Shown one piece after another: positions 2,450-39,473 of a stretch of 64,000 bases of DNA (the stretch's first letter is position 1; the number at the start of each line of letters is the position of its first letter). Below the pieces are notes generated by a model. It saw nothing but the letters and a program-made list of their open reading frames with translations, ran no database searches and had not been told where the DNA came from. Both the position numbers and the translations under genes were made by a program. The DNA is taken from positions 701,899-765,898 of the forward strand of contig DF820463.1 of assembly GCA_000739535.1 (NCBI GenBank), read 5' to 3'. The stretch is from Candidatus Vecturithrix granuli (GTDB lineage: Bacteria; Moduliflexota; Moduliflexia; Moduliflexales; Moduliflexaceae).

Positions 2450-3463
2450 ATGAAAGAAAAAATTTTCGTCAGAGATTTAGTAGAGGTTTTGGATAGTATT
2501 ACGGGAGGAAGGGTACTGAAGTCTCCTCAAGATTTCGCAAGCGGAAAAAATCCGTTTGTTGTTACCAAATCCTCGAACATTCCTGGCAAGGCGGTCACTG
2601 AGACGCCGGGACTTGTGTGCGGAAGTCTGGATCAGGAGATCAAAAAAATTGCGGTCTTGATGACGCTGACCGAAAGCGGAATCGAACTGGCCGGAGCAAC
2701 CGGAGTAGATGCCCTGGTTGCACACCATCCGATTGCCGACGCCGCAAACGCAGGCGGCGTCCTGCTAAGGACCTATCTGGGATTGTACAATGTGGCTGCG
2801 CTGGAACTTCACGAAGCCTTTCATGGCTTGCACCCCGGTATTGCCTACCTTCACGGACATAAAGCGTATCATGTTGACATCAGGTACGGCGGAATTCCGG
2901 GGAATATCCTGTATGTTGGCGATGCGCTGCCGGAAGTCAAGACCGTCGGCGACATGTTGTTTCGATTGGATACGCTTATGGGGACTGAGGTGGAAGAAAA
3001 AGTGCTCCAGAGTGAACGGCAAATTCGGGGGTGTCAGGAAATTCAGGAAACAAGCGTAAGCGCAAGAGGCAGCATCCTTGTTGGCAGCCCTGAAAAACCT
3101 GTGACCAAAGTGATTCATATCTTCCCGCACACCGGTTTTACGCCTGAACACCTGGAAAGGGTCGTGAGTGAACATCCAGGAGCAGACACAATGCTGGCAA
3201 CTATCAGCAGAGTGTATCCCGGGAACCCATTGATCGAAAAAGCTCGCGAACTTGGTCTGAACTTTGTCTGTGGGAACTCGCATGCCCTGGAGATCATAGA
3301 AAACGGCCTGCCTCTGGCCAGGGCGATCAAAATGCACCTGCCGGACGTGGACGTGGTCATTTTCCGGGAAAGACTGACCAGCATCCCGCTGGACAAATTC
3401 GGCGCAAAAGATGTGCAGGAATACGCTAGTTACATTGCTCAAAACTTTTTGATGAAAAAATAA
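2450..3463 (+). CDS. Nif3-like (NGG1-interacting factor 3 family) protein
   Basis: A 337-residue protein from the ATG at 2450, chosen because AAAGGAGG lies just upstream; an in-frame ATG at 2402 has no such site. The central segment DALVAHHPIADAANAGG matches the metal-binding HHP motif of the Nif3/YbgI family. A second conserved area near the C-terminus, around NFVCGNSHALEIIENGLP, resembles the GH...E region that completes the dinuclear metal site. Nif3 proteins form hexameric toroids with a di-metal centre, and their biochemical role is poorly defined. It is the first gene of a block of catabolic genes and sits 26 bases before a Gate-domain membrane protein. Function in this locus is unknown; a hydrolase role is speculation. 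Confidence 0.7.
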   Translation: MKEKIFVRDLVEVLDSITGGRVLKSPQDFASGKNPFVVTKSSNIPGKAVTETPGLVCGSLDQEIKKIAVLMTLTESGIELAGATGVDALVAHHPIADAANAGGVLLRTYLGLYNVAALELHEAFHGLHPGIAYLHGHKAYHVDIRYGGIPGNILYVGDALPEVKTVGDMLFRLDTLMGTEVEEKVLQSERQIRGCQEIQETSVSARGSILVGSPEKPVTKVIHIFPHTGFTPEHLERVVSEHPGADTMLATISRVYPGNPLIEKARELGLNFVCGNSHALEIIENGLPLARAIKMHLPDVDVVIFRERLTSIPLDKFGAKDVQEYASYIAQNFLMKK

Positions 3464-3489
3464 ACGTATAAAGAAAGGAGAATCACACA

Positions 3490-4572
3490 ATGAGTCTTGA
3501 AACCAAAACTGAAGCCAGAGAAAAAAAGATGAAGACGATCGAAATCGTCGGTCTGGTTCTTGTCCTTCTATCCCTATTAGGGCTTATTTTTTACCCCGGG
3601 TTTATCGCTGGCATTTTTGACGCCATGGTGAAAAAAGCCCTTCCCATTATTGTCAACGTGACCCTGACAGGTACTCTCGCAACTGCTGTGATTATCAGCG
3701 TCATGATCGGTCGTATTCTGGAACGCTGCGGATTTACTGATGCGCTTATGCGCATTTTCATTCCGCTCGCCAGAGTGATCAAAGTGAATTCCGCCGTTCT
3801 CATCCCGGCCATTTATAACATTTTAGGCGATATCAACGCGGCAGGCAGGATAGGCGGCCCCATCCTGGTGAAAGCTGGGACCACAAAGGATGAGCAAAAA
3901 ATTGCCATCTGTACGATGGTTCAATCCCAGCAGTCCTTTTCGACCTTTATGTTTGGTCTGATGGCTCTAACTGCGGTCGGTGCCAGGGCGTTCCTTGTGA
4001 TTGTGATTGCAGTGTTCGCACCATTAGTTGTGGTGCCGTGGATCATGAGGCTGACCATTTGGCGCGACACCAGGGCTGTATCGCTCGAAGAAATGCCGAG
4101 TTTTACGCCGACCACCGCGCCGCTGGCGACGGTTTTCGGAGCAGCCAGAGAAGGCGCGGAACTGGTGTTCCTGCTCATTATCCCCGCGTTTGCTGTGGTC
4201 TTCTCGATTATCGGCGGTCTTGAATATATTGGCGTCTGGAAACCGATAGAAAGCGGCTTGACGGCTCTGCTCTCAGCCCTGGCGATTGATCCCACGACGG
4301 GGATGGTGAGTATCCTGGCCTCGCCCACGCTCGCCATGTCTCAGTTGAAGGACGTCGCCGCTGGTATGTCGCCAAAGCTTGTCATCGGCTCTTTTGTTCT
4401 GGCAGCCTCAGGTTTCCCATTATCGGTGATTTTCGGACAAATCCCGGTCATCTGGTCCGGCGCGACAGACCTGAATCACCGCGAAGCTATGGGCGCCGCG
4501 GTGATCGGGGCTGTGATGAGGTTGATCACCGCCGGAGTGGTGGCACTGTTACTTACGCCTCTACTGGCGTAA
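3490..4572 (+). CDS. Gate-domain (nucleoside-recognition family) membrane protein
   Basis: A 360-residue polytopic membrane protein with roughly 8-10 hydrophobic segments. Two similar internal halves, one with NVTLTGTLATAVIISVMIGRIL and one around LVFLLIIPAFAVVFSIIGG, suggest the duplicated Gate (nucleoside-recognition) fold. A strong GAAAGGAGA site precedes the ATG. It lies directly behind the Nif3-like gene and ahead of the FAD oxidoreductase. Such proteins are found with transport and sporulation functions and often lack a known substrate. Here it probably handles the substrate or a product of the locus, by context only. Confidence 0.6.
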   Translation: MSLETKTEAREKKMKTIEIVGLVLVLLSLLGLIFYPGFIAGIFDAMVKKALPIIVNVTLTGTLATAVIISVMIGRILERCGFTDALMRIFIPLARVIKVNSAVLIPAIYNILGDINAAGRIGGPILVKAGTTKDEQKIAICTMVQSQQSFSTFMFGLMALTAVGARAFLVIVIAVFAPLVVVPWIMRLTIWRDTRAVSLEEMPSFTPTTAPLATVFGAAREGAELVFLLIIPAFAVVFSIIGGLEYIGVWKPIESGLTALLSALAIDPTTGMVSILASPTLAMSQLKDVAAGMSPKLVIGSFVLAASGFPLSVIFGQIPVIWSGATDLNHREAMGAAVIGAVMRLITAGVVALLLTPLLA

Positions 4573-4627
4573 ATGTCGGCGAGAACGACATGGTTAGTAA
4601 CGCTATTTCCTAAGCGGACCGGTCACA

Positions 4628-4658
4628 ACAACCAGCTTTCTTGAAAAAACCTGGTTGT
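4628..4658. repeat. palindromic repeat, family B copy 1
   Basis: A hairpin with arms ACAACCAG and CTGGTTGT and inner TTTCTT/AAAAAA pairing, between the Gate protein and FAD oxidoreductase genes. It has the same core form (CCxGxTTTCTT/AAGAAACCxGG) as copies at 8506, 9009, 35598, 47572 and 54238. It may act as a weak processing or termination site. Confidence 0.5.
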
Positions 4659-4712
4659 TAGCCGTGTCAATCTTTATGACGAATGCTGCACTATAAAAAG
4701 GAGGAGCATAAA

Positions 4713-5987
4713 ATGGCAAAAGTTGTTATTGTTGGGGGTGGCTGGGCAGGATGTGCATCTGCTGTAGCCGCAGCCAAAAAGCAGGTAGAAGTTGTGGTAT
4801 TAGAGCGAACGGACATGCTCCTGGGAACCGGATTGGTCGGCGGTATTATGCGTAATAATGGACGTTTTACCGCTACCGAAGAAGCTATTGCCCTGGGGTG
4901 CGGCGATCTGTTCCAACTGACAGACCAGGAAGCCCGGCACAAAAACATCGAATTTCCTGGCCATAAACACGCCTCACTTTATGATGTCGCTACCATGGAG
5001 CCTACCGTGAAAAAATACCTCCAGGATCAAGGAGTAGAAATCCATTTTCAAGCCCGGGTCGCCGAGGTTGAAATGGAAGGCAAAACCATCAAAAAGGTGA
5101 TGACTGCCAAAGGTGATGCCTTTAACGGCGATGCCTTTATTGACACCACGGGTACTGCGGGTCCCATGAATAATTGTACGCGTCATGGCAATGGGTGCGC
5201 GTGCTGTATCTTGCGCTGTCCCAGCTTTGGCGGACGGGTGAGTTTGACAGCCGAAGCGGGCGTGGAAGAAATTATTGGCGTCAAAAAAGACGGATCCGTC
5301 GGAGCGATGAGCGGTTCCTGTAAACTGTTCAAAGAATCCCTGGATTCTGCGATTGTGGAGGAATTGAATCGCACTGGCGTTGCAATCATTCCCATTCCTC
5401 CTGATCTGATGGCGAGTGAGGAAAAATTAACAATGAAAGCCTGCCAGCAATATGCGTTAAAAGAATTTGCTGAAAATATCATCCTTTTAGATACTGGACA
5501 CGCCAAGCTGATGACCCCCTATTTCCCTCTGGAACTCCTGCGCAAGATACCCGGGATGGGAAATGCACGCTATGAAGATCCTTACGCTGGCGGCCTGGGA
5601 AATTCCATGCGCTATATGGGCATGGCTCCGCGCAATGATGCGCTTCAGGTCGAGGGGGTTAATAACCTCTTCTGCGCCGGAGAAAAAGCCGGCCTTCTGG
5701 TCGGACATACCGAAGCCATCGTCACAGGCAGCCTCGCCGGATATAATGCCGCTTGCCAGGCCAGGAGCGAAGAACTCCTCATTCTTCCGGATGCTCTTGT
5801 GATCGGCGATGCCATCGCCTTTGTTCGCACCGAGATGCAGACGGAGGAAGGGAAAACCAAAAAATATACATTCTCCGGATCGGTGCTCTTTGAAAGAATG
5901 AAACAGAAAGGGTATTACAGTACAAACCTGGATGAAATCAGAGGTCGGGTTGCAAATGCAGGTTTAATGAACGTGATGCTTGGATAA
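4713..5987 (+). CDS. FAD-dependent oxidoreductase with a Cys-rich motif
   Basis: A 424-residue flavoprotein from the ATG at 4713, which follows AAAGGAGGAG (an in-frame ATG at 4683 lacks a site). The N-terminus VVIVGGGWAGCASAVAAA is a Rossmann dinucleotide-binding motif followed by VVVLER for ribose binding. A second FAD contact region is near NLFCAGEKAGLLVGHTEA. Residues 155-169 contain five cysteines in the pattern C-x6-C-x-CC-x3-C within NGCACCILRCPSFGG, which could bind a metal or Fe-S cluster or form redox disulfides. It probably oxidises an amino acid or intermediate of the locus; substrate unknown. It lies between two membrane-protein genes of the same block. Confidence 0.72.
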   Translation: MAKVVIVGGGWAGCASAVAAAKKQVEVVVLERTDMLLGTGLVGGIMRNNGRFTATEEAIALGCGDLFQLTDQEARHKNIEFPGHKHASLYDVATMEPTVKKYLQDQGVEIHFQARVAEVEMEGKTIKKVMTAKGDAFNGDAFIDTTGTAGPMNNCTRHGNGCACCILRCPSFGGRVSLTAEAGVEEIIGVKKDGSVGAMSGSCKLFKESLDSAIVEELNRTGVAIIPIPPDLMASEEKLTMKACQQYALKEFAENIILLDTGHAKLMTPYFPLELLRKIPGMGNARYEDPYAGGLGNSMRYMGMAPRNDALQVEGVNNLFCAGEKAGLLVGHTEAIVTGSLAGYNAACQARSEELLILPDALVIGDAIAFVRTEMQTEEGKTKKYTFSGSVLFERMKQKGYYSTNLDEIRGRVANAGLMNVMLG

Positions 5988-6028
5988 CTTAGAACGATCA
6001 CAGGTCTTCAAAAAGGAGGGATTGACTT

Positions 6029-7396
6029 ATGGTTCAAATCACTTTATCTCACTGGGTCTTTTTAATTGTCATGCTTGCGGTGATCGTCGCTATGATCATG
6101 CGCAGAGGAGTGGTTCTCATTGCCGTTATCGGCGTTTTTTTCGTGGCTCTGTCTTATCATAAAAACCTTGTTGCTACCATCCAATCAATGTTTAATGCGT
6201 TTATGGAGGCAGGTATAGATCTCTTTGACATCATGCTGGTCATTGCTTTAATGGTCGCTATGTTGAAAACCATGGAAAAGATGGGGGCCGACTATTTAAT
6301 GGTGGCGCCGATTAAAAAAGCACTCAACAAACCAACGGTTGCGTTCTTTACGCTGGGGATCATTATGTATTTAGCGGCTTTGTTCTTCTGGCCTACTCCG
6401 GCGACAGCCCTGGTAGGTACAATCCTGATTCCGGTCGCTGTGAAAGCCGGATTGCCTGCAATCGTAGCGGCAATGAGTGTGAATATTTTGGGACATGGCA
6501 TGGCTCTTTCCGGTGATTTGATTATTCAGGGCGCGCCAGCTATCACTTCGAGCAATGCAGAGGTTCCAATAGAAAGCGTTTTGATAAAAGGCGGCATTCT
6601 TTCGGTCACCGCCGGCCTTGTTGCCATTTTGGTCGCCTTCTTGATGGTGAGAAAGGAAATTGCAAAAGGAGGTTCCGGAGAAAGCGTTCTGGCAGAGGCT
6701 CAACCTCGAGAATCTTATACCCGTGGGGCGCGTTTCATGGCCATTGCTGTTCCCATAACCTATTTAGCCTTACTGATCTATATGATCATTTCTAAGACCC
6801 GAGGAGGAGCTGCTACTGCTCTCTTAGGAGGCACTGCTGCAATCTTTATCACCCTTGGTTCGATTCTGGCCTATGGGGATAAAGCTTTGGAATCCTCCGG
6901 AGATTTAATCCGCGATGGTTTAATGTTCGCAATTAAGATTTTTGCGGTCGTCATTCCGATCGCAGGCTTCTTCTTTACAGGTGCACCGAGTATGGCCCCT
7001 AAAATCTTAGGCGAGGGCGCGCCGGGTTTTCTGTTTGATTTGGGCAATGCCTTTGCCAATATTATGCCGCTTTCTAAAATTCCGGTTGCGATAGGCGTGA
7101 TGATTACCGGAATTATTACCGGCCTTGATGGCTCCGGTTTTTCCGGATTGCCCCTGGTCGGCTCTCTGGCCAATGCACTAGGGACTCCTCTGGGAATTGA
7201 TGTGGCAGCCCTGGCATCCTTAGGACAGGTCGGGGCAGTGTTCTCCGGCGGCGGCACGCTGACAGCCTGGGCTTTTGGTCTGGTCGCTGTGGCTGGCGTC
7301 TCAGGCGTATCGCCTCTGGAATTGGCCCGCAAAAATTTTATCCCGGTAGCCTGCGGTCTTGTCGCCGCAACTATTGTAGGAATTATGATGATGTAA
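6029..7396 (+). CDS. permease, GntP/citrate-transporter-like
   Basis: A 455-residue integral membrane protein with about 11-12 hydrophobic segments and two related halves typical of the ion-transporter superfamily (GntP, DcuC, CitMHS type). Signature-like stretches are FWPTPATALVGTILIPVAVK in the first half and GLDGSGFSGLPLVGSLANAL in the second. AAAAGGAGGG precedes the ATG. It is likely the importer of the organic or amino acid degraded by the surrounding genes. The exact family and substrate cannot be fixed by eye. Confidence 0.62.
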   Translation: MVQITLSHWVFLIVMLAVIVAMIMRRGVVLIAVIGVFFVALSYHKNLVATIQSMFNAFMEAGIDLFDIMLVIALMVAMLKTMEKMGADYLMVAPIKKALNKPTVAFFTLGIIMYLAALFFWPTPATALVGTILIPVAVKAGLPAIVAAMSVNILGHGMALSGDLIIQGAPAITSSNAEVPIESVLIKGGILSVTAGLVAILVAFLMVRKEIAKGGSGESVLAEAQPRESYTRGARFMAIAVPITYLALLIYMIISKTRGGAATALLGGTAAIFITLGSILAYGDKALESSGDLIRDGLMFAIKIFAVVIPIAGFFFTGAPSMAPKILGEGAPGFLFDLGNAFANIMPLSKIPVAIGVMITGIITGLDGSGFSGLPLVGSLANALGTPLGIDVAALASLGQVGAVFSGGGTLTAWAFGLVAVAGVSGVSPLELARKNFIPVACGLVAATIVGIMMM

Positions 7397-7448
7397 TCAG
7401 GAACAGGAGTGTAAAACAGCCTTTGCGGAAGTCGCAATGAAAATCAGA

Positions 7449-7625
7449 TGTAGCGCGAAACTCCAGTTTCGCGCATCGTTAACAGCCGCGAAACTGGAGT
7501 TTCGCGCAACATTTTCACAGGAGTCACCAATGTACCGCGAAGCTCCAGCTTCGGCGGCACGCACGCACGAGATGAAAATCAGGCGTATGCGCGAAACTGG
7601 AGTTTCGCGCTACATTTTCACAGGA
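7449..7625. repeat. cluster of four short palindromes with direct-repeat spacers
   Basis: The gap between the permease and DapF-like genes holds four copies of a self-complementary unit of the form GCGAAACTCCAGTTTCGC (about 7452-7475, 7482-7505, 7532-7556, 7590-7613). Two are followed by ACATTTTCACAGGAG, and ATGAAAATCAG is also repeated. The last copy supplies the ribosome binding site of the DapF-like gene. Related AT-richer palindromes lie at 19861-19945. An open frame across the cluster is just the repeat read through. Confidence 0.7.
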
Positions 7626-7633
7626 GAAACAAC

Positions 7634-8494
7634 ATGATGCGGTTTTGGAAATATCACGGATTAGGGAATGATTATCTGGTCATGCCCCCTGAAGACATCT
7701 CCAAAGAACTGACGCCAGCGCAAATTCGCTTAATCTGCCATCCACACTATGGCATTGGCTCCGATGGGTTGCTGATCGGCCCATTCGACGCTGAAGAACA
7801 AACCTTCAGACTCCGCTTATTTAATCCTGACGGCGGTGAATTTGAAAAAAGCGGCAACGGATTGCGCATTTTCGCCCGATACCTCTGGGATATGGGCTGG
7901 GTCCAGAACAAACCTTTTCATATTCTGACCCCCGGCGGGAAGGTCACTGCGCAGGTGTTTGAAGGCGGACGAAGGGTAACGGTCGAAATGGGGCAGGTGA
8001 GTTTTCACAGCAGCCGTATCCCGGTCGCCGGGCCGCCGCGTGAAGTGTTGCAAGAATCAATCGAGGTGCAGGGCCGGGAGTTTCGTTTTTGCGCAGCAAC
8101 CATCGGGAATCCGCACTGCGTCATCTTGTGCGACGATATTTCCCGCGAACTCGCGTGCAGCATAGGGCCGCACGTTGAAACGGATCCGCGCTTTCCCAAC
8201 CGCACCAACGTGCAATTTTTGAAAGTGCTCGACCGGGCAACCATTCAGATTGAAATCTGGGAACGCGGTGTGGGCTACACGCTTGCTTCGGGCAGCAGCA
8301 GCAGCGCCGCCGCTGCGGTCGCCCATAAATTAGGATTGTGCGATTCCCATATCACGGTCAGAATGCCCGGCGGCGAACTTGACATTCAGATTGATCCCGA
8401 TTATGCCATTACGATGACAGGCGCAGTCACGAAAATTTGCGAGGGACAATTTGATAACGAAGCCTTTGACGCCCTTAACGTAATTGACAATTGA
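7634..8494 (+). CDS. DapF-like epimerase homologue with both catalytic Cys replaced by Ser
   Basis: A 286-residue member of the diaminopimelate epimerase fold. The N-terminus WKYHGLGNDYLV and blocks IGSDGLL, FNPDGGEFEKSGNG, GNPHCV, NVQFL and ERGVGYTLASGSSSSAAA align by eye with DapF. In DapF the two catalytic cysteines lie in the CGNG and ACGTG motifs. Here both are serine (Ser73 and Ser219, counted from the first of two adjacent ATGs), so a normal two-base cysteine epimerisation is unlikely. AGGAGAAAC precedes the start. In related folds, loss of one cysteine accompanies dehydratase activity (trans-3-hydroxyproline dehydratase). Gene context with an aminomutase suggests action on an amino acid. 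It could also be an inactive or binding-only paralogue. Confidence 0.75.
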   Translation: MMRFWKYHGLGNDYLVMPPEDISKELTPAQIRLICHPHYGIGSDGLLIGPFDAEEQTFRLRLFNPDGGEFEKSGNGLRIFARYLWDMGWVQNKPFHILTPGGKVTAQVFEGGRRVTVEMGQVSFHSSRIPVAGPPREVLQESIEVQGREFRFCAATIGNPHCVILCDDISRELACSIGPHVETDPRFPNRTNVQFLKVLDRATIQIEIWERGVGYTLASGSSSSAAAAVAHKLGLCDSHITVRMPGGELDIQIDPDYAITMTGAVTKICEGQFDNEAFDALNVIDN

Positions 8495-8505
8495 GAGCAG
8501 CAAGA

Positions 8506-8536
8506 GAAACCGGGTTTTTTGAAAAAACCCGGTTTC
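8506..8536. repeat. palindromic repeat, family B copy 2
   Basis: A near-perfect hairpin with arms GAAACCGGGTTTTTT and AAAAAACCCGGTTTC in the 59-base gap between the DapF-like and unknown 143-residue genes. Confidence 0.6.
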
Positions 8537-8553
8537 TGAGAGAGGCACATACG

Positions 8554-8985
8554 ATGGATCCTTACGCCAATAAGATGTTTTCCAAAGATCCGTATTATAA
8601 GAAAATCGATCTGGTGAGCCATGTGGTCGCCATTCTGGACGCTACGGTTGAAAAACGCGGACTTGAAATTATCCAGCCTCCCACGCGAGTGGTGAACAAG
8701 GATGAGGTGCATGAATTGATCCTGACCGATCAGACGACGCTATCTGAAGATCGGCGCGTTGATCGTATCGCCTATCTGGCGTTCGTCTGTTTTGAAAACA
8801 GCGGCGTCCTTCAACGCGGGGATAAGTTGATATTCGGTGATGTGGAAATCGGAACAATTTTAGGATTCGATGAAGCGCATCTGCCGAATCATCAAAATAT
8901 CGTCCTGCACACCAATAACTTACAAACCGGGCGTGAATGGGGCCTGAACCTGCACGCCCAATTAGTGTTTCATAAACCTGAGTAA
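8554..8985 (+). CDS. unrecognised 143-residue protein of the catabolic block
   Basis: A soluble protein of 143 residues from the ATG at 8554, preceded by GAGAGAGG; longer readings run through the family B repeat. There is no signal peptide or membrane segment. Notable stretches are KRGLEIIQPPTRVV, a middle DRIAYLAFVCFENSGVL and a C-terminal FGDVEIGTILGFDEAHLPNHQNI. The last looks like a small beta-barrel. I do not recognise the family. The length is close to accessory subunits such as 2-amino-4-ketopentanoate thiolase alpha, but I see no clear match. It sits tightly in the operon between the DapF-like and PLP genes, so it is probably a subunit or an enzyme of the same pathway. Confidence 0.6.
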   Translation: MDPYANKMFSKDPYYKKIDLVSHVVAILDATVEKRGLEIIQPPTRVVNKDEVHELILTDQTTLSEDRRVDRIAYLAFVCFENSGVLQRGDKLIFGDVEIGTILGFDEAHLPNHQNIVLHTNNLQTGREWGLNLHAQLVFHKPE

Positions 8986-9008
8986 GCGGCCATAAATTTT
9001 CAAAGCGA

Positions 9009-9040
9009 AGAACCGGGTTTCTTCGAAGAAACTCGGTTCT
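9009..9040. repeat. palindromic repeat, family B copy 3
   Basis: A hairpin, AGAACCGGGTTTCTT against AAGAAACTCGGTTCT, between the 143-residue protein and the PLP enzyme. One mismatch in the arms. Confidence 0.6.
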
Positions 9041-9094
9041 TGAGGACGTGAAAATTTTTGAGTCCGCACTTATGTCACCACAAGGAGTTATACG

Positions 9095-10558
9095 ATGAAA
9101 AATTATAAATTCAAATACGAAATGTACAAAGCGTTGCAGTTAGCTATTCCCGAAATCTACAAAGAAGCTGCGGAAGCCGCCGATGAAATCGGCATTCCGA
9201 AAGAGGAACGCGGGAAATTCGGGTTGACCGGGGCCATTTCCGGTTGTCATGGCATTCCCCACAAAGAAGTGCGCGAAGCCTTAGAAAAGACCTCGACCCA
9301 GATTATTCCTAACAGCGTGCTGGATGAAGAACTGCGGTACGTGGTCAAGTCCTATTATGGCGATGAATACGATGCGCTCGCGGTCAATACCTGTGAAGCC
9401 GCGCTGTGGGTCTCGTTTGATACCTTAGCCACTCCGCCGATGTGCGGCAGAGGCGACAACTATCGCGCCCGCTACATTATTCCTTATGAAAAACATCTGC
9501 ACCATCACGGCGGCTACGGCAGACCCTTTCCCGGACGCTATAAAGACATCTTTGCCGACCGAGGCAATACCGCCGGCGAATTGGGATTCTACGGCAAGCG
9601 CCAGAACAACCTTGATATGATTATCGCCAAACTGGTCGGCGCCGATTATTCCTGCCATGGGATCAAATATCATCCGGCCGTGCAATTGACCGGCGTGGAT
9701 GCCGAAGCTTCAGCGAAACGTATTCGGAAAATTGCGAAACAGCATGCGACCTTACTCACGGCGATTGCGTCGCTCGGTTACGATACTCCCGGTTACGGGT
9801 ACAAGGAAAAAGCGGCTGACGGCGCGCCGTTGCTGCAAAAACTGTTGGGCGATGTGGCCGCAGATTTCAATGTGCCCTATATTGTGGATAACGCCTGGGG
9901 CGTGCCGTTTATCGGCACGGATATTCGCAAAACCGGCGCGGATGTGATCCTGTACAGCATGGATAAAGCCGCCGGGAGCGTCACCGCCGGACTCATCATC
10001 GGCAAAGAGGAAGCTCTGGTGCAGTTACGGCGGGCTTTAGGCACCCACGGCGACCGTTGGGGCACCGGCACGTCGCACGGTAAAGCTGCGTATGTGACCA
10101 TTGATCCAGGTAAAGAAGGACTGGTCGGAGTCATTGCCGCGCTCAAAGTCTTGCTTGAACACCCGGAACGTGTGACAAAACCGATTGACGAACTGTATCA
10201 GATTGTGGTAGAAGAATTTGGAAAGATCGATCCTAAAATTCGAAAAGATTTCAGCTTTGCCAAATCCTATAACTCCGGCGCAGTAGAAATCAACTATGAA
10301 GCGAGCTGGCAAGAAGGCGGCAATTGCATTCCGATTTTCTCCATCGAGGATATGTACTCCGGCACCAATATTTTCCAGACCGGGACAAGCAAAATGGGAA
10401 TTATCCCCACGATCGCGTATGACGGGAACATCTTCATCTCCCCAGGCTTAGGCACAACAGATTTGGATGGCAACCTGATCGAAGAAAAAATGCGCTGGGC
10501 TGTGAAAGGTATGGTGAAATTAATCGAGATCGTTTGCCGCAAAATTGGCATTATCTAA
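9095..10558 (+). CDS. fold-type-I PLP-dependent enzyme, SelA/lyase-like
   Basis: A 487-residue cytoplasmic enzyme. The central part has the order seen in fold-type-I PLP proteins: a Gly-rich cofactor region (LTGAISGCHGIPH), an Asp contacting the pyridine ring in IVDNAWGVPF, and a probable Schiff-base lysine in YSMDKAAGSVTAGLIIG. The SxDK-x-xG arrangement resembles SelA and D-glucosaminate-6-phosphate ammonia-lyase type proteins. A HLHHHGGYGRPFPGRY stretch is distinctive and may bind substrate or metal. AAGGAG precedes the start. It lies immediately upstream of the aminomutase genes, so an amino-acid lyase or aminotransferase role is plausible. The exact reaction cannot be told. Confidence 0.68.
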   Translation: MKNYKFKYEMYKALQLAIPEIYKEAAEAADEIGIPKEERGKFGLTGAISGCHGIPHKEVREALEKTSTQIIPNSVLDEELRYVVKSYYGDEYDALAVNTCEAALWVSFDTLATPPMCGRGDNYRARYIIPYEKHLHHHGGYGRPFPGRYKDIFADRGNTAGELGFYGKRQNNLDMIIAKLVGADYSCHGIKYHPAVQLTGVDAEASAKRIRKIAKQHATLLTAIASLGYDTPGYGYKEKAADGAPLLQKLLGDVAADFNVPYIVDNAWGVPFIGTDIRKTGADVILYSMDKAAGSVTAGLIIGKEEALVQLRRALGTHGDRWGTGTSHGKAAYVTIDPGKEGLVGVIAALKVLLEHPERVTKPIDELYQIVVEEFGKIDPKIRKDFSFAKSYNSGAVEINYEASWQEGGNCIPIFSIEDMYSGTNIFQTGTSKMGIIPTIAYDGNIFISPGLGTTDLDGNLIEEKMRWAVKGMVKLIEIVCRKIGII

Positions 10559-10565
10559 TCTTTAA

Positions 10566-10629
10566 AACTACAGGAATGGCATATAAGCAGGAATTTCTAC
10601 ATTCTTGCTTATATGCCATTCCTGTAGTT
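10566..10629. repeat. long near-perfect inverted repeat before the mutase genes
   Basis: Two 29-base arms (10566-10594 and 10601-10629) are complementary at 28 positions, with the remaining pair a possible G-U, separated by 6 bases. The structure starts 7 bases after the PLP gene stop and ends 8 bases before the ATG of the small mutase gene. In mRNA it would be a very stable stem. There is no T-run on either side, so simple intrinsic termination is unlikely. mRNA processing or control of translation of the next gene is possible. Confidence 0.85.
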
Positions 10630-10637
10630 CCCCAAGC

Positions 10638-10904
10638 ATGCCGGAAGAACCCAAACTGGCTGAGATTGACCCTTTTGCCCGCATTGTTGATGTCATGGAT
10701 ATCGAAACCTTTTTTGCGTGTTCTAGCCAGGAAGAAGGAGAACAAGTAGCTGCCGCCCTGATGCACAAATTGGGCCTGACAAATTACGATATTGTGTCAT
10801 TCGTTTTCCACAAAATGGGAGCGCGCGTCCGAATTCGCGCCACCTTCAATCGTCCGGGCGAACACTACCCCTGGCTGGGGAGTGAATTGACAATGGAGAA
10901 TTGA
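10638..10904 (+). CDS. small subunit resembling the KamE dimerisation domain
   Basis: A protein of 88 residues from the ATG at 10638; no good ribosome binding site is visible because the inverted repeat abuts the start. The pattern (a beta strand, EEGEQVAAALMHKLGL, then two strands VSFVFHKMG and VRIRATFN) resembles the N-terminal dimerisation domain of the lysine 5,6-aminomutase beta subunit, which there is fused to the B12 domain. Here it stands alone and the B12 domain is on the next gene. It ends 5 bases before the large subunit. The assignment rests on general pattern and context, so confidence is moderate. Confidence 0.5.
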   Translation: MPEEPKLAEIDPFARIVDVMDIETFFACSSQEEGEQVAAALMHKLGLTNYDIVSFVFHKMGARVRIRATFNRPGEHYPWLGSELTMEN

Positions 10905-10909
10905 GAATT

Positions 10910-12748
10910 ATGGAACAAAACTCGACAAAACGCATTCTCTTAGTTCCGCTCGATCCCGTACACGATGTCGCTGTAAAAATTATCAACCGAAAGCTGCGGC
11001 AGCGCAATTTTAACACCTTACTGCTCGAACCGGATTTGCCGATAGAAGAAATTTGTGCAACAGCCGTAAAATATCAGCCTGATTTTCTGTTGGTGAGCCG
11101 TACCATCGGCTATGGCGTGGGAGAATTATTGAGCAAATTTATTGATCAGCTTGAACTGGCAGGCATCCGCCGACGCGCCAAAATCATCCTCGGCGGAAAA
11201 GCCATCAAACCCGAATTGGCAGCGGAACTCGGTTTTGATGCCGGTTTTGGCAGCAATACCGATTACAATGAAGTGGTGGCCTTTATTGAAGGCCATGAAT
11301 TTGTGCGCCCTAATCCGGCTTTGCGCGTCAAAAAAGACATTACGCACGGTTACACCTACAATGTTCATCACACGCTGATTCGCGAATATCTCGAAACCAT
11401 CACAGATCAAATTTTGCAATGGGCGTCCGACTATACATCGCCAGGCGTGGAACGCGCTAATCTTGTGCAGGCCTATTTGCAAAAGTATCGCGACTGTCTT
11501 GAAGATGTTCGCTTAGAAGGCGAAACCTTACGACAATATCTGGAGTTCAGCGATGATGTGATCCAGGCGTACTATCAATCCGGCGCCATCCCCAAAACCG
11601 TTAAAAAAATTGACAAACAAGTGATTCGAGAATTCATCGCCTTACATAAGCGCATGAATGCGGCGATCGATTATTCCTATCGCTCCATGCAGTTCCAGCG
11701 CGAAAAACCCCTGGTGTTCGTTCAATACGGCACCGGCTGCCCGTTGATGGATATTGAGCATATTAAGGCGTGTGAAAACTGGGGGGCCGATGGGATTTTT
11801 CACTTTGATCCTGCCTGGGGGGCGCGTACCGAAGGGTTTATGTCGGGCTATTTAGGGCATGAAGCGGATGGCACGATTCTGACCAAAGAAAATCTGGCCA
11901 GTATCAAAAATGTGATCAACGACTCCACCATCTGGTCGGTGCGTGCACATCGCGGTTTAAACACGCCGGAAACGGTGGTGCTTGCCGGCGAGTTAGGGGC
12001 CGATTTAACCAAAATCAATATTGTCTATGGTTCGTTAAACGGCGGTACGGATCCGGCGCGGCTCACGGTGGACGGAGTCAAAAGCATCAAACTCGCGGCT
12101 GAGTATGGTTTGCCTTTTGATGTCGTTACCAATGAAGAACTTGGCGGCGTTCCGGCGTTTAAGGCTTTTGCCGGCATGTTGATTGTCAGCTATCTGGCCT
12201 TGAAGTGCGGCGCGCGGCCGATTTTGAAGCCGCTGTTCTGCTATTCCCCGGATGTGATGATTCAGGGTTACATGGAAACCAATTACCTCGATTATAATGC
12301 GGCCAAAATCCTGGCCCTGCGCAGCATCATTGACGCGCCGATCTGGCCCGGAGAACCGATTGGTTTTATGACTCATTCCGAAGAACGGGTGCAATCAGCC
12401 ATGGCCACCGCCCTGCACGCGCTGCTCAGTATCAGCCTTGATGTAGATGCGATCACGATCGCTTCAACTGATGAAGCCTATTCGCGCGGTCCCATTTCAG
12501 CCCATGCGCGTCTCGACACCTTAAACGCGGTCAGAGAAGTTTTTCGCTTCTGGGGCAGCAGCAAAATCCAAATCAATGCCGCTATCCTGAGCATGAAAGA
12601 CCAACTGTGCGACGGCATCGAACAGACTTTAAAAGTGGTCTGCGAACATGGCGATTTTGTCTCAGCCCTGAATACCGGATTGTTAGGCACCAGGCAGGAT
12701 GGCGCAAACCCGGGACGAGCCGGGCGCAACACCTTGATCAAACGATGA
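10910..12748 (+). CDS. B12-dependent aminomutase/mutase-like protein, N-terminal B12 domain plus TIM barrel
   Basis: A 612-residue protein from the ATG at 10910. Residues 1-130 form a Rossmann-like cobalamin-binding domain: RILLVPLDPVHDVAVKII carries a His18 in the place of the cobalt-ligating histidine (canonical DxHxxG, here DPVHDVA), followed by FLLVSRTIGYG and IILGGKAIK. Lys28, ten residues after the histidine, is near the place of the PLP lysine of lysine 5,6-aminomutase. From about residue 250 a TIM-barrel follows, with YGTGCPLMDIEH, WGARTEGFMSGYL and the late DEAYSRGPISAHARLDT. WGARTEGF resembles a motif of the KamD alpha subunit, and glutamate mutase MutE is the other relative to consider. 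It overlaps the next gene by ATGA. Substrate unknown. Confidence 0.68.
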   Translation: MEQNSTKRILLVPLDPVHDVAVKIINRKLRQRNFNTLLLEPDLPIEEICATAVKYQPDFLLVSRTIGYGVGELLSKFIDQLELAGIRRRAKIILGGKAIKPELAAELGFDAGFGSNTDYNEVVAFIEGHEFVRPNPALRVKKDITHGYTYNVHHTLIREYLETITDQILQWASDYTSPGVERANLVQAYLQKYRDCLEDVRLEGETLRQYLEFSDDVIQAYYQSGAIPKTVKKIDKQVIREFIALHKRMNAAIDYSYRSMQFQREKPLVFVQYGTGCPLMDIEHIKACENWGADGIFHFDPAWGARTEGFMSGYLGHEADGTILTKENLASIKNVINDSTIWSVRAHRGLNTPETVVLAGELGADLTKINIVYGSLNGGTDPARLTVDGVKSIKLAAEYGLPFDVVTNEELGGVPAFKAFAGMLIVSYLALKCGARPILKPLFCYSPDVMIQGYMETNYLDYNAAKILALRSIIDAPIWPGEPIGFMTHSEERVQSAMATALHALLSISLDVDAITIASTDEAYSRGPISAHARLDTLNAVREVFRFWGSSKIQINAAILSMKDQLCDGIEQTLKVVCEHGDFVSALNTGLLGTRQDGANPGRAGRNTLIKR

Positions 12749-13749
12749 AGACCATCGGAATTGTCGGTATTGCCAAAAACACGGGCAAAACCACGACAAC
12801 GAACGCACTGATCGAGTATCTTTATCAACAGGATGCCAAAATCTGCGTCACTAGCATTGGCTACGACGGTGAAGAAATTGATAATATCACCGCTCTGCCC
12901 AAACCCCGCATCAGTTTGAATCCGGGGACATTGGTGGTGACAGCTTCAGACTGCGTCGCACCTCAGGCTGAAAGCTATCGAATTTTGAGGCAGACGGATA
13001 TTCACACGGTTCTGGGCAATATTCAGATCTGCCAGACGGAAAAACCGGTGAACGCCATTGTCGCAGGGCCCAAAACCGGCGATGATCTGCAACGGGTAAT
13101 GGGGATGCTTCAGGATTTTGCCTGTGACGTCCTGCTGGTAGATGGCGCGTTGAATCGCGTGGCCCCGTTTGCCAAGGTTGAGAACCTGGTAATCGCGGTT
13201 GGGCCGGCCGCCAATCATGATCTTGACGAACTTGCCAGGGAAATCAAACTGATTGTTGATTTGACCAGGCTGACGGTTTGGCAATGTAAGGGCGATCCCT
13301 TCCCTTTTTCGGGGAAAAGCGCGGCCGGCTCGCAGGGCGTGGACGTTGATCCGCAAAATAACGCTGTTTGGGTGCATGGCCCGGTGTATGCGACCACGCT
13401 CCAGAAGAAGATCGCGGAGTTCCGCCAGAGCACGCCTGTTTCTGCGCTGATCATCGCATCGGCTCTACATCTGTTAAGCGGCAGTGAATACCGCGAAATC
13501 CAGCGGTTTATGCAACATCTTCGCCAGGCCAGCATTGATCTGTTTGTGCAAAAACAGATTCGGCTTTTAGGACTCACGATCAACCCGGCCTATCCGGCTC
13601 CCGTGAAAAAAGGGCTGAACATATACCAATTACGCTATGTGGACGAGCAGATCTTCAAAGAAAAATTGCAAGCATTACTCGATCATGAAAGTTTGATGAT
13701 CAACGTCAAAAATGAGAGCGCGGAACCTCTGCTTGAACGGGCCGTGTAA
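12745..13749 (+). CDS. P-loop protein, probable mutase reactivase (KamB-like)
   Basis: A 334-residue cytoplasmic protein starting at 12745 in an ATGA overlap with the mutase stop, implying translational coupling. The Walker A motif is VGIAKNTGKTTTTNALIEYL at the N-terminus. Other landmarks are SIGYDGEEID, the KPRISLNPGTLVVTA stretch and CDVLLVDGALNR as a likely Walker B region. From memory this pattern (AKNxGKT, then DGE, then KPxI...GTL.TA) matches the lysine 5,6-aminomutase reactivase KamB. Such chaperones exchange damaged cobalamin using ATP. The coupling to a B12 mutase supports the role. It is the last gene of the block. Confidence 0.65.
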   Translation: MKTIGIVGIAKNTGKTTTTNALIEYLYQQDAKICVTSIGYDGEEIDNITALPKPRISLNPGTLVVTASDCVAPQAESYRILRQTDIHTVLGNIQICQTEKPVNAIVAGPKTGDDLQRVMGMLQDFACDVLLVDGALNRVAPFAKVENLVIAVGPAANHDLDELAREIKLIVDLTRLTVWQCKGDPFPFSGKSAAGSQGVDVDPQNNAVWVHGPVYATTLQKKIAEFRQSTPVSALIIASALHLLSGSEYREIQRFMQHLRQASIDLFVQKQIRLLGLTINPAYPAPVKKGLNIYQLRYVDEQIFKEKLQALLDHESLMINVKNESAEPLLERAV

Positions 13750-17801: not shown

Positions 17802-18368
17802 ATGATTGAAATTCGCTGGCATGGCCGGGGCGGACAGGGCACCGTGACGGCAGCCAAAATGCTGGCTGATGCGTCGCTGCAAGGCGGCAAATATGTGCAA
17901 GCGTCGCCGGAATACGGCGCGGAACGCATGGGCGCGCCGCTGCGCGCGTTCAACAGAATCAGCGATGAGGAAATTTTTCTGCATTGCAGTATTACCAATC
18001 CGGACATCGTCGTCGTGGTTGATCCCTCGTTGGTCACACAAGCGGCCGTCACGGAAGGCGTGAAAGATTCGACGACCTTTGTAGTGAACAGTCCTTTATC
18101 AGCTCAGGAAGTTCGTAAACTGTTAAAATTTAATGCGGGCAAGGTATTTACCGTTGACGCCACCAAAATTGCCCTGGAAACTTTCGGGCGCAATATTCCC
18201 AATACGCCCATGTTAGGCGCATTGATCCAGGTCACACAGATTCTGGAAAAAGACACACTGGTGACGCAGCTCAAAAAGAGCTTACAAAAAAAGTTTGGCG
18301 ACAAGGTGGTTCAGCAGAACGTTAACGCCGTCGAACGCGCATTTCAGGAGGTAACAAGCGATGAATGA
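17802..18368 (+). CDS. porG: 2-oxoacid:ferredoxin oxidoreductase, gamma subunit
   Basis: A 188-residue gamma subunit of a four-subunit 2-oxoacid:ferredoxin oxidoreductase, which decarboxylates pyruvate or a related acid to acyl-CoA with reduction of ferredoxin. The start IEIRWHGRGGQGTVTAAKML is the hallmark glycine-rich motif, followed by EYGAERMGAPLRAF. TAAGGAGGAG precedes the ATG. The 3' end overlaps the ferredoxin subunit gene by 8 bases. Gene order gamma-delta-alpha-beta is typical of pyruvate- and 2-oxoisovalerate-type enzymes. Pyruvate is the likeliest substrate but is not proven. Confidence 0.88.
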   Translation: MIEIRWHGRGGQGTVTAAKMLADASLQGGKYVQASPEYGAERMGAPLRAFNRISDEEIFLHCSITNPDIVVVVDPSLVTQAAVTEGVKDSTTFVVNSPLSAQEVRKLLKFNAGKVFTVDATKIALETFGRNIPNTPMLGALIQVTQILEKDTLVTQLKKSLQKKFGDKVVQQNVNAVERAFQEVTSDE

Positions 18369-18666
18369 AACCTGGCAAGAACTCCCGATTGGCGGATTGA
18401 TCGTTGAGCCGGGCAACGCCCTGGGCTATCATACGAGCGGATGGCGCGCTATGCGCCCGATTTACCATCCCGAACATTGCATCCAATGTTTCAAGTGTTG
18501 GATCTTCTGTCCTGATGCGGCCATCGTCGTGAAAGATGAACAAGTCGTCGGGATGAATCTGGATTATTGCAAAGGCTGTGGGATTTGCGCGTATGAATGT
18601 CCCGGAAAAAAAGGCAGCAAAGCGATCACAATGGAAGAAGAAGCCAAATTTTTACATGAAGATTGA
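18361..18666 (+). CDS. porD: 2-oxoacid:ferredoxin oxidoreductase, delta (ferredoxin) subunit
   Basis: A 101-residue subunit with two 4Fe-4S clusters: HCIQCFKCWIFCPDAA and YCKGCGICAYECP. It moves electrons from the thiamine-diphosphate site to external ferredoxin. GGAGG precedes the ATG inside the porG reading frame. Length and position match the family. Confidence 0.9.
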   Translation: MNETWQELPIGGLIVEPGNALGYHTSGWRAMRPIYHPEHCIQCFKCWIFCPDAAIVVKDEQVVGMNLDYCKGCGICAYECPGKKGSKAITMEEEAKFLHED

Positions 18667-18677
18667 GGAGATAAATT

Positions 18678-19859
18678 ATGCGTGAAGTGATAGCAATTAC
18701 AGGAAATGGCGCAGCAGCCCAGGCCATGCGGCAAATCAATCCTGATGTGTGCGCGGCGTATCCGATTACGCCTTCGACGCAGGTGATGGAAGATTTTTCG
18801 CAGTTTGTGGCTGATGGGCTGGTGGACACCGAATTAATTACCGTTGAAAGCGAACATAGCGCCCAGAGCGCGTGCGTGGGCGCGGCTGCGGCCGGCGGAC
18901 GGGTGATGAACGCCACATCAGCCAATGGCTTAGCCCTGATGTGGGAAATTCTCTATATCGCCTCGGGTAGCCGCCTGCCGATGGTATTAACCGTCGCGAA
19001 CCGCGCCTTAAGTTCGCCGATTAATATTCATGCGGATCACGGCGATCAGATGGGATGCCGCGACGCCGGCTGGATTCAGTTCTATTCTGAAAACGCCCAG
19101 GAACAGTATGATAATCTGATTCAAGCCATTCCGATTAGCGAGGCGATGAATGTGCGGCTGCCAGTGATGGTGGGCATGGACGGCTTTATTATTTCCCATT
19201 CGATTGAACGCCTGGAAATGCTGGAGGATGCGGAAGTGAAGGAGTTTATCGGCGAGTATAAACCGCATTACCCCTTGTTAGATATTCACAATCCTGTGAC
19301 GTATGGGGCAGTGGCCTTCCACGATTATTATTTTGAATGTAAACGCCAGCAGATTGAAGCCATGCAGTGCGCCAAAGACGTGATTCTGGAGTTTGGCAAA
19401 AAATACGGCAAATTAAGCGGACGGCAGTATGGGTTCTTTGTCCCATACAAACTTGAGGACGCTGAAATTGCGATTGTGGCGATTGGCTCGGCCTGCGGCA
19501 CCACGCGGGTCATGGTGGATCAACTGCGGCAAAAAGGAATCAAAGCCGGACTCTTGAAAATTCGCTGTTTCCGACCTTTCCCGGCGCAGGAAATCGCCGA
19601 GGCGCTGACTTCAGTCAAAGTCGTCGCCGTACTAGATCGTTCCGATACTTTCGGCGGTCAGGGCGGCCCGCTCTTCTCTGAAATTCGCTCTGCCCTGTAT
19701 GATGCTCCTGTCCGACCTCAGATTCTCAATTTCATCTATGGCCTCGGCGGCCGAGAATTAGATCTGGCTCTGGTCGAAAAAGCCTTTGCCAAAGCCCAAA
19801 ATGTTGCGGAAGGCGCTGCAATCGCGCCAGTTGTGGAATATCTTGGTGTCAGAGAGTAA
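18678..19859 (+). CDS. porA: 2-oxoacid:ferredoxin oxidoreductase, alpha subunit
   Basis: A 393-residue alpha subunit. Characteristic stretches are NGAAAQAMRQINPDVCAAYPITPST near the start, VESEHSAQSACVGAAAAGGR and ATSANGLALMWE, and near the C-terminus DRSDTFGGQGGPL. GAGGAG precedes the ATG 11 bases after porD. Together with porG, porD and porB it forms the heterotetramer. Confidence 0.9.
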   Translation: MREVIAITGNGAAAQAMRQINPDVCAAYPITPSTQVMEDFSQFVADGLVDTELITVESEHSAQSACVGAAAAGGRVMNATSANGLALMWEILYIASGSRLPMVLTVANRALSSPINIHADHGDQMGCRDAGWIQFYSENAQEQYDNLIQAIPISEAMNVRLPVMVGMDGFIISHSIERLEMLEDAEVKEFIGEYKPHYPLLDIHNPVTYGAVAFHDYYFECKRQQIEAMQCAKDVILEFGKKYGKLSGRQYGFFVPYKLEDAEIAIVAIGSACGTTRVMVDQLRQKGIKAGLLKIRCFRPFPAQEIAEALTSVKVVAVLDRSDTFGGQGGPLFSEIRSALYDAPVRPQILNFIYGLGGRELDLALVEKAFAKAQNVAEGAAIAPVVEYLGVRE

Positions 19860-19860
19860 G

Positions 19861-19945
19861 ATGTATCGCGAAATTCCATTTCGCGGCCTTGCTCGAAGAG
19901 GGAAAGATGTACAGCGAAATTTTATTTCGCTGCCTTGCTCGAAGA
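19861..19945. repeat. pair of short palindromes inside the por operon
   Basis: Two units, TCGCGAAATTCCATTTCGCG and CAGCGAAATTTTATTTCGCTG, each followed by CCTTGCTCGAAGA, lie between porA and porB. They are an AT-richer relative of the palindromes at 7449-7625. Confidence 0.65.
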
Positions 19946-20006
19946 AACGAATACGTGATGTATGATGCGGTATGAACGCATGACGCATGACGTATTGAGA
20001 AATATT

Positions 20007-20969
20007 ATGGCAATAGATGTGAACAAAGTCACGCTGAAAGACATCAAAAAGATCGCCTCAACCAAAGCGGATCAGTTGACGAGTGGTCACCGACTTTGCC
20101 CTGGCTGCGCGGCAGGCACGATTTTCCGGCAAGTTCTGGCGGCGGCGGAACATCCGCTCGTGGCGGCAGTAGCAACCGGGTGTTTTGAAGTTTCGACCAC
20201 GATTTATCCTTATACGGCCTGGAACATTCCCTATATCCACAATGCCTTTGAAAATGTCTCGGCCACGATTTCCGGGGTTGAAGCCATGTATAAATCCCTC
20301 AAAAAACGCGGTAAACTGCCGGTGGATGAAGAGATCAAATTCCTGGCAATTGGCGGGGATGGCGGTACCTACGACATCGGGCTGCAATCTCTTTCAGGCG
20401 CGATTGAACGCCGCCACAATTTTCTGTACATCTGTTACAATAACGGCGCGTACATGAATACTGGCATTCAACGCTCCAGTGCCACACCCTTCGGGGCCAA
20501 TGCCACCACCAGTCCGTCAGGCAAAGTGATTCCGGGCAAATTACAATTCCCGAAAGACCTGACTGAAATTGTCATCGCCCATGAACCGGTGTATGCGGCG
20601 CAGGCCAGTCCGAGTCACTGGCAGGATTTGATGACCAAAGTCCGCAAAGGGTTGGCGGCCGAAGGTCCGGCGTTTATCAATGTGATCTCCTCCTGTAACC
20701 GCGGCTGGCGCATCCCTGCAGAGCAATCCGTTGAAATCAACCAAAAAGCTGTTGAATGCGGGTTCTGGCCGCTGTACGAGTATGAAGACGGGCAATATAC
20801 CCTGACCTATACTCCCAAAACCAAGCAGCCAGTTGCTGAGTGGATGCAGTTGCAAGGCCGCTTCGGCCACCTCTACAAACGCGAGCCGAACAAAGCGATC
20901 ATTGACCAGGTGCAGGAATACGTTGACCAACGTTGGGAACGCCTGCTCAAACGCTGCGGCAAAGCCTGA
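20007..20969 (+). CDS. porB: 2-oxoacid:ferredoxin oxidoreductase, beta subunit
   Basis: A 320-residue thiamine-diphosphate-binding beta subunit if begun at the ATG at 20007; an in-frame ATG at 19962 is also possible and neither has a strong ribosome binding site. HRLCPGCAAGTIFRQ near the N-terminus carries the first cluster cysteines. GGDGGTYDIGLQ...YNNGAYMNTG is the cofactor-binding motif. A repeat pair separates it from porA, so its expression may be uncoupled from the first three genes. Confidence 0.88.
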   Translation: MAIDVNKVTLKDIKKIASTKADQLTSGHRLCPGCAAGTIFRQVLAAAEHPLVAAVATGCFEVSTTIYPYTAWNIPYIHNAFENVSATISGVEAMYKSLKKRGKLPVDEEIKFLAIGGDGGTYDIGLQSLSGAIERRHNFLYICYNNGAYMNTGIQRSSATPFGANATTSPSGKVIPGKLQFPKDLTEIVIAHEPVYAAQASPSHWQDLMTKVRKGLAAEGPAFINVISSCNRGWRIPAEQSVEINQKAVECGFWPLYEYEDGQYTLTYTPKTKQPVAEWMQLQGRFGHLYKREPNKAIIDQVQEYVDQRWERLLKRCGKA

Positions 20970-30766: not shown

Positions 30767-31065
30767 AGCAAGAAAAAACGAGCGGCGTCAAATAGTGAGC
30801 TTCTGGGCAACCAGCACTTCTTCCCCGTTCGCCTTTTAAAAAAGTTGATTCATGTAGCCAAATGATCTAATCGAAAAATATTGTGGAGCATGAAAATTTT
30901 TTGTCAATAGAAATTCATCATCGTTCTGGGAATTGCTAATTTTCTTGACACCGCTTTCATAAATACACATAAAGGAAACGAGAAAGAAATGAAGCAATTC
31001 GTGAACTCTTATAATAGAAACGTACCACGCACCAGAAAAGTGTGCAGCGCGTTTTTATAGCGATT

Positions 31066-32619: not shown

Positions 32620-32638
32620 ATGCGATCAGTTTAAAAAT

Positions 32639-32807
32639 GGATAGTGGTTCAATAGTAAGTGATATGTTCCCTGAGCGGAGTCGAAGGGAACTACGGGCAG
32701 ATCGTTTCGACTTCGCTCAACGAGCGGGCATCACTTATTATTGAACCACTACCTAAAAATGTTGGATGTTGAATGTTGGATTCAGCATTCAACATCCAAC
32801 ATCCAAA
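32639..32807. repeat. nested palindrome, family D copy 2
   Basis: Between FdrA and DUF1116 genes. ATAGTGGTTCAATAGTAAGT and ACTTATTATTGAACCACTA arms enclose GTTCCCTGAGCGGAGTCGAA and TTCGACTTCGCTCAACGAGC. It is followed by its own TGTTGGATGTTGAATGTTGG palindrome with a partner to 32807. Confidence 0.75.
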
Positions 32808-32810
32808 CTT

Positions 32811-39398: not shown

Positions 39399-39473
39399 CG
39401 GGGCGTAGCGCAGACTGGTTAGCGCACTGGCATGGGGGGCCAGGGGTCGGAGGTTCAAATCCTCTCGCCCCGA
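39399..39473 (+). tRNA. tRNA-Pro (anticodon GGG)
   Basis: A cloverleaf can be drawn. Acceptor CGGGGCG/CGCCCCG with discriminator A; D stem GCGC/GCGC; anticodon stem CTGGC/GCCAG with loop ATGGGGG, giving U33, anticodon GGG and G37 as usual for tRNA-Pro; T arm GGAGG-TTCAAAT-CCTCT. CCA is not encoded. A T-run (TTTTTTT) follows at once and would terminate the transcript. Confidence 0.95.

Follow-up and report, generated by a model that had tools for sequence, protein, structure and literature searches.

What does a run of ten genes that couples a B12-dependent mutase to a pyridoxal 5′-phosphate (PLP) enzyme do in Candidatus Vecturithrix granuli? The genes occupy positions 2450-13749 of a 64,000-nucleotide stretch of contig DF820463.1 (positions 701,899 to 765,898; assembly GCA_000739535.1), hereafter called the window, and a sequence-only reading had assigned them to an undescribed route of amino acid or diamino acid degradation with a B12/PLP aminomutase at its center. 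Adenosylcobalamin (AdoCbl) isomerases that use free amino acids are few: glutamate mutase, lysine 5,6-aminomutase, and ornithine 4,5-aminomutase. The locus is a real, conserved system and apparently an undescribed one; the literature search, which covered open-access full texts only, returned neither a description of it nor a match to DUF6917, one of its proteins. We consider the chances about even that it encodes both a new branch of the AdoCbl enzymes of the KamDE/OraSE class and the steps that follow in the pathway.

The mutase gene (10910-12748, + strand) encodes a predicted AdoCbl isomerase in which, as judged from profiles, an AlphaFold2 model, and alignment, an N-terminal KamE-type B12 domain is fused to a KamD-type barrel lacking a PLP site. 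In the model, built from 36 sequences (predicted local distance difference test score, pLDDT, 88.7), the barrel is nearest to KamD (8t0v_A, Z 33.0, 386 aligned, 3.0 Å), ahead of glutamate mutase (GlmE, Z 26.9), OraE (Z 26.5), and methylmalonyl-CoA mutase (Z ~19). Profile comparison by hhalign likewise links the mutase to KamD (E 7e-5 over 317 columns), and its B12 domain is nearest to that of KamE (PDB profile match, E 5e-18). Directly upstream lies a small-subunit gene (~10638-10904, +, start uncertain), whose product resembles the KamE/OraE dimerization domain (hhalign to KamE, E ~1e-5, over a short alignment) and for which no clear PDB relative was found. With a KamD-type barrel, a KamE-type B12 domain, and a KamE-like small subunit, the parts of KamDE are therefore present in rearranged form.

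The PLP contacts of KamDE are R184, G187, Q188, S189, Y236, S238, Y263, R268, N299, and K144β (PMC3958899). Counting the mutase from the ATG at 10910, the first eight align with D300, W303, G304, A305, A346, R348, Y373, and G378, N299 aligns with no residue, and no Lys stands at the K144β position. Nine of the ten contacts are thus gone from the family alignment, only Tyr263 being retained (as Tyr373); the KamD phosphate loop R184-TTGQS189 has become DP[S/A]WGA, and Ser238 an invariant Arg. These replacements hold over 81 mutase sequences, all of which share D300, R345, H347, R348, Y373, R384, E410, D521, and E522; the invariant acidic pair D521-E522 falls near the KamD Glu411 position when aligned by eye. 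In place of the DxHxxG motif, all 80 sequences with letters there carry D-P-V-H-D-x-G, with Pro at the Asp position and, in a few of them, A instead of G. Because both the PLP contacts and the PLP lysine are missing, the mutase is read as a PLP-independent AdoCbl isomerase, and we infer that it no longer binds PLP; the earlier assignment as a B12/PLP aminomutase found no support. A true PLP-dependent B12 aminomutase of a short diamino acid, with PLP bound in a new manner or the PLP chemistry divided between it and the separate PLP enzyme, would agree with the KamD-type barrel, the KamE-type B12 domain, the KamB-type reactivase described below, and the retained tyrosine. It is nevertheless unlikely, since most of the nine lost contacts have given way to invariant residues of other character and the K144β lysine has no counterpart.

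The last gene of the block (12745-13749, +), which overlaps the mutase gene by 4 bp, encodes a P-loop protein that is, on sequence grounds, a KamB homologue. Compared with the KamB encoded in a standard kam cluster (kce, kdd, kamA, kal, kamB, kamD, kamE; locus L146), it shows 37% identity over 168 aa and an hhalign probability of 100% (E 2.9e-46, 307 columns); no clear PDB relative was found. The proposal of a B12-dependent amino acid locus with a reactivase is sustained, the reactivase being of KamB type.

A scan of the collection's genome contigs with the mutase gave 88 contigs with relatives, of which 80 were retained. These relatives are 46-58% identical over nearly the full length and come from Atribacterota, Thermotogota, Bacillota, Spirochaetota, Verrucomicrobiota, Chloroflexota, Sumerlaeota, and UBP4, at least seven phyla. 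When co-occurrence was counted by profile searches at 81 loci, on the mutase strand and within 10 kb, the mutase was accompanied by the small subunit in 77, the PLP enzyme in 60, the reactivase in 57, an FCD regulator in 56, DUF6917 in 46, the flavin adenine dinucleotide (FAD) protein in 35, and RidA in 34. The recurrent core comprises about eight families, commonly in the order DUF6917, RidA, fold-type-I PLP enzyme, FAD/Cys-cluster protein, regulator, small subunit, mutase, and KamB-like reactivase, and since it is found on one strand in dozens of genomes from several phyla, the block lies far beyond chance. The expectation that relatives would keep the gene order was thus confirmed for this core, which recurs across phyla, and failed for the Nif3-like protein, the gate-type membrane protein, and the DapF homologue, which are rarely kept: relatives of the first two occur in two other loci each (three loci in all) and a DapF relative in five or six. 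The PLP gene is present in 15 of 16 mutase genomes, the sole exception having its mutase near a contig end; where the two are not adjacent, it usually lies at another site in the genome, there too mostly alongside DUF6917. DUF6917 itself was detected in nine of 385 genomes searched; besides the window genome, four of these have the PLP gene next to it. A riboswitch scan of 19 sources, considered as a clue to the effector, found only two riboswitches, both for cobalamin and downstream of the core, with none before it, and this line was dropped.

The PLP enzyme (9095-10558, +), a proposed lyase whose family members are 54-72% identical, carries the fold-type-I PLP lysine (Lys291) and Asp265 (AlphaFold2 pLDDT 82.7). 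It has in common with SelA/DgaE-like enzymes the fold type and, near the PLP lysine, a weak signature of the DgaE family, but it scores only 29.6 bits with TIGR01437 (DgaE) against a cut-off of 385 and stands outside that family, in one of its own of ~487 aa. It is regularly accompanied by DUF6917 and a Rid-family protein; Rid proteins are known to hydrolyze the enamines and imines that PLP enzymes set free (PMC4433059). A distant relative in Variovorax, the one case seen in a plasmid scan, has only RidA and an ABC importer for company, and the PLP step can thus operate independently on a compound taken up from outside. Three Verrucomicrobia place a divergent AceE-like 2-oxo-acid dehydrogenase E1 directly before the PLP gene (L089 4351-6723, L087 275-2647, and G389 C70 20748-23096). 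These E1s have 81-83% identity to the L089 copy, and the generic AceE of the same genomes lies elsewhere, at ~28% identity to the PLP-linked E1. In L089, the E1 and PLP genes follow prpB, prpC, and prpD in the same gene run, each of the three scoring above its curated cut-off, and among 16 genomes tested true prpD was found in this one only. The E1 position together with prpBCD therefore suggests that the 2-oxo acid is 2-oxobutyrate, ending as propionyl-CoA. The window itself also holds a four-subunit pyruvate-type 2-oxoacid:ferredoxin oxidoreductase (POR) operon at 17802-20969. Apart from the window, just 2 of 82 loci have POR genes (37-57% identity) close to the mutase, and the operon was therefore not counted as part of the system; in L108 a similar operon directly follows the reactivase.

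From these parts a pathway can be proposed. The small subunit and mutase would form a B12 radical isomerase performing a 1,2-rearrangement of an amino acid without PLP, and the KamB-like protein would, by homology, repair it. The rearranged product would pass to the separate PLP enzyme, where an elimination would free an enamine or imine for the Rid deaminase to hydrolyze to a 2-oxo acid, most likely 2-oxobutyrate, which would then be oxidized to propionyl-CoA. A fitting reaction would be the conversion of a 2-amino-4-X-butanoate to a 2-amino-3-X-butanoate by the mutase, followed by removal of X by the PLP enzyme; X could be NH2, which would make 2,4-diaminobutyrate the substrate, although that is only a guess. 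Accessory or supply functions would fall to the FAD protein, permease, DUF6917, and regulators. The wider claim, of a new class of PLP-independent AdoCbl amino acid isomerases in at least seven phyla that arose from a KamDE-like aminomutase through PLP-site loss and domain rearrangement and opens a hitherto unknown route from an amino acid to 2-oxobutyrate, is tentative, possible rather than probable.

Several points weigh against this scheme. The PLP residues were mapped through an alignment of remote homologues (21% identity, hhalign probability 63%), and PLP could bind the mutase in a new way. The presumed elimination is drawn from the distant SelA/DgaE-like signature and the RidA link; fold matches of the PLP enzyme do not discriminate, many fold-type-I families giving Z 21-23 with threonine aldolase at the top, and no RidA was identified in the window. 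The link to propionyl-CoA comes only from Verrucomicrobia, with three instances of the E1 and a single instance of prpBCD.

A biosynthetic or housekeeping role instead of catabolism would suit the many Bacillota in which the cluster sits in a fixed housekeeping setting (scpAB ... rluB, or rex ... maf-radC-mreB), and also the mutase tree, which mostly tracks phyla and in which the window sequence sits on a long branch close to Atribacterota and Thermotogota. Such a role appears improbable in view of the permease, TRAP, and ABC importers and the FCD and YheO regulators of catabolic type that accompany the cluster, and of prpBCD with E1 in a Verrucomicrobium.

Degradation of diaminopimelate or a D-amino acid, to which the sequence-only reading had seen pointers in DapF and the nearby dapL, is more doubtful still. 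The window DapF homologue (7634-8494, +; TIGR00652, 228 bits, over the cut-off) belongs to a Ser/Ser subfamily (SGNG/ASGS) in which Ser replaces both catalytic Cys, so that the epimerase motifs CGNG and ACGT are absent. A second DapF in the same genome has both Cys. This subfamily is widespread (L237-L250), including in genomes without the mutase, and the nearest relative (63%, from the same family as the window genome) lies beside a lysA-like gene in a genome that gave no mutase match. The dapL gene (855-2081) passes the LL-diaminopimelate aminotransferase cut-off (666 versus 585 bits) and is, from its sequence, a true lysine-pathway gene. With a Ser/Ser DapF, a relative beside a lysA-like gene without mutase, and a genuine dapL, the diaminopimelate idea is therefore weakened, DapF counts for less as a substrate clue, and the window copy is probably a lysine-pathway neighbor and not part of the system. 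In favor of such a substrate, Thermotogota and Atribacterota carry a canonical DapF and Ddh (TIGR01921, 290 bits) immediately in front of the mutase, Ddh adjoins DUF6917 in a Chloroflexi genome, lysA follows the mutase in Verrucomicrobia, and DAO-type dehydrogenase and Asp/Glu-racemase family genes occur in Thermotogota and Atribacterota. However, these genes are missing from most loci, dapL and the DapF subfamily look like lysine-pathway neighbors in the window, and prpBCD with a dedicated E1 suggests a C3 acyl-CoA product instead.

An ordinary KamDE, OraSE, or MutSE locus, in whose favor only distant homology speaks, is hardly tenable and was rejected on sequence grounds: the mutase reaches 51 bits with the NCBIfam KamE model (cut-off 280), 28 bits with OraE (cut-off 800), and an hhalign probability of 0.2% with glutamate mutase PF06368, and neither PF09043 (KamD/OraE-type) nor PF06368 (GlmE/MutE) has a match in its own genome although the same searches find both in other genomes.

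Profile comparison with KamD, KamE, KamB, OraE, and MutE thus sets the new system apart from all three, and each comparison also reveals what is shared. With KamDE and KamB it has in common the barrel, the B12 domain, the KamE-like dimerization domain, and the neighboring KamB-type P-loop gene. It differs in that KamD and KamE are separate proteins with DxHxxG and a PLP site with its lysine, whereas here the B12 domain sits at the barrel N-terminus, the small subunit stands apart, the motif is DPVHDxG, and the PLP-site residues and lysine are missing; the partners differ as well, being a separate PLP enzyme, RidA, and DUF6917. Family scans recognized none of kamA, kdd, kce, and kal among the ten genes, a genome-wide search for them not having been made. 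OraSE shares the superfamily, the B12 domain, and a small partner, but here the PLP site is lost, the B12 domain is N-terminal, and no OrtAB was recognized alongside. MutSE/GlmES, too, is an AdoCbl enzyme that works on a free amino acid without PLP, as presumed here, and we take its barrel-mouth arginines to be comparable to those of the new mutase, their equivalence in position being partly an assumption; the latter differs in lacking a PF06368 match, in its subunit make-up, and in its KamB-type reactivase.

The remaining genes complete the block, whose ten co-directional genes of the composition claimed earlier were confirmed as real. The window lies on a 1.15-Mb contig of an 8.4-Mb assembly with a reported contamination of 10.75%. 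Family scans name five of the ten genes (DUF34/NIF3, GidA-like FAD, DapF homologue, DUF6917, and, by its B12-binding domain only, the mutase); they returned no match for the small protein or for either membrane protein. AGGAGG-like sites precede six starts (5-6 of 6 matches, spacing 6-9 nt), in line with the mostly strong ribosome binding sites first described; those of the DUF6917 and mutase genes are weaker, and none was found for the small subunit and reactivase. A 237-bp gap between permease and DapF divides the block into groups of four and six genes and contains a perfect 9-bp hairpin (7589-7610, +, from a pattern scan only), a possible terminator or processing site, so the block may form two transcription units.

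Among the accessory genes, the Nif3/DUF34-like protein (2450-3463, +; PF01784, 29.9 bits, over the cut-off) has relatives (58-63%) beside the mutase in L075 and L080. The gate-type membrane protein (3490-4572, +), with 62-63% relatives in L075 and L077, probably has a transport role. The GidA-like FAD oxidoreductase (4713-5987, +; PF01134, 5e-33; relatives 56-66% identical) carries an invariant motif of C165, C172, C175, and C179, numbered from an ATG at 4683, which could hold an iron-sulfur cluster. Thermosediminibacteraceae and related bacteria have a second copy, adjacent to a PRK05802-like electron-transfer flavoprotein (L041 12901-15971, L046 12986-15270, L050 9162-11454). The permease (6029-7396, +), a probable substrate importer, has 41-56% relatives in 14 loci. 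The protein formerly listed as unknown (8554-8985, +) is DUF6917 (PF21891, 152 bits, cut-off 27), a core member found with the PLP gene in other phyla; no solved-structure relatives were found. Upstream, the YheO-like regulator (98-745, +; PAS_6 and HTH_22, PF08348/PF13309) is probably part of the system, as had been suspected, with relatives at 39-46% identity adjoining RidA-DUF6917-PLP in Thermotogota and Atribacterota. In these two phyla, TRAP-TAXI transporter, DAO-type dehydrogenase, SoxA-like, BFD, and Asp/Glu-racemase family genes lie beside the core (L033 2507-9736, L026/L038), and in L033 a DHDPS-family gene precedes the PLP gene. Elsewhere in the window are genes resembling FdrA and AllG, a possible oxamate carbamoyltransferase cluster (31042-34223), and a DUF364/DUF4213 putative heavy-metal chelation protein (39509-40288) adjoining a tRNA (39399-39473).

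Many anaerobes share the gene set, among them Heliobacterium, Thermosediminibacter, Fervidicola, and Tepidanaerobacter, which can be cultured, and its substrate can therefore be found at the bench. If the proposed pathway is true, a KamDE scaffold without PLP would be a natural test of the part that PLP plays in radical 1,2-shifts, with the B6 chemistry shifted to a second enzyme, and DUF6917 and several proteins without a family name would gain functions.

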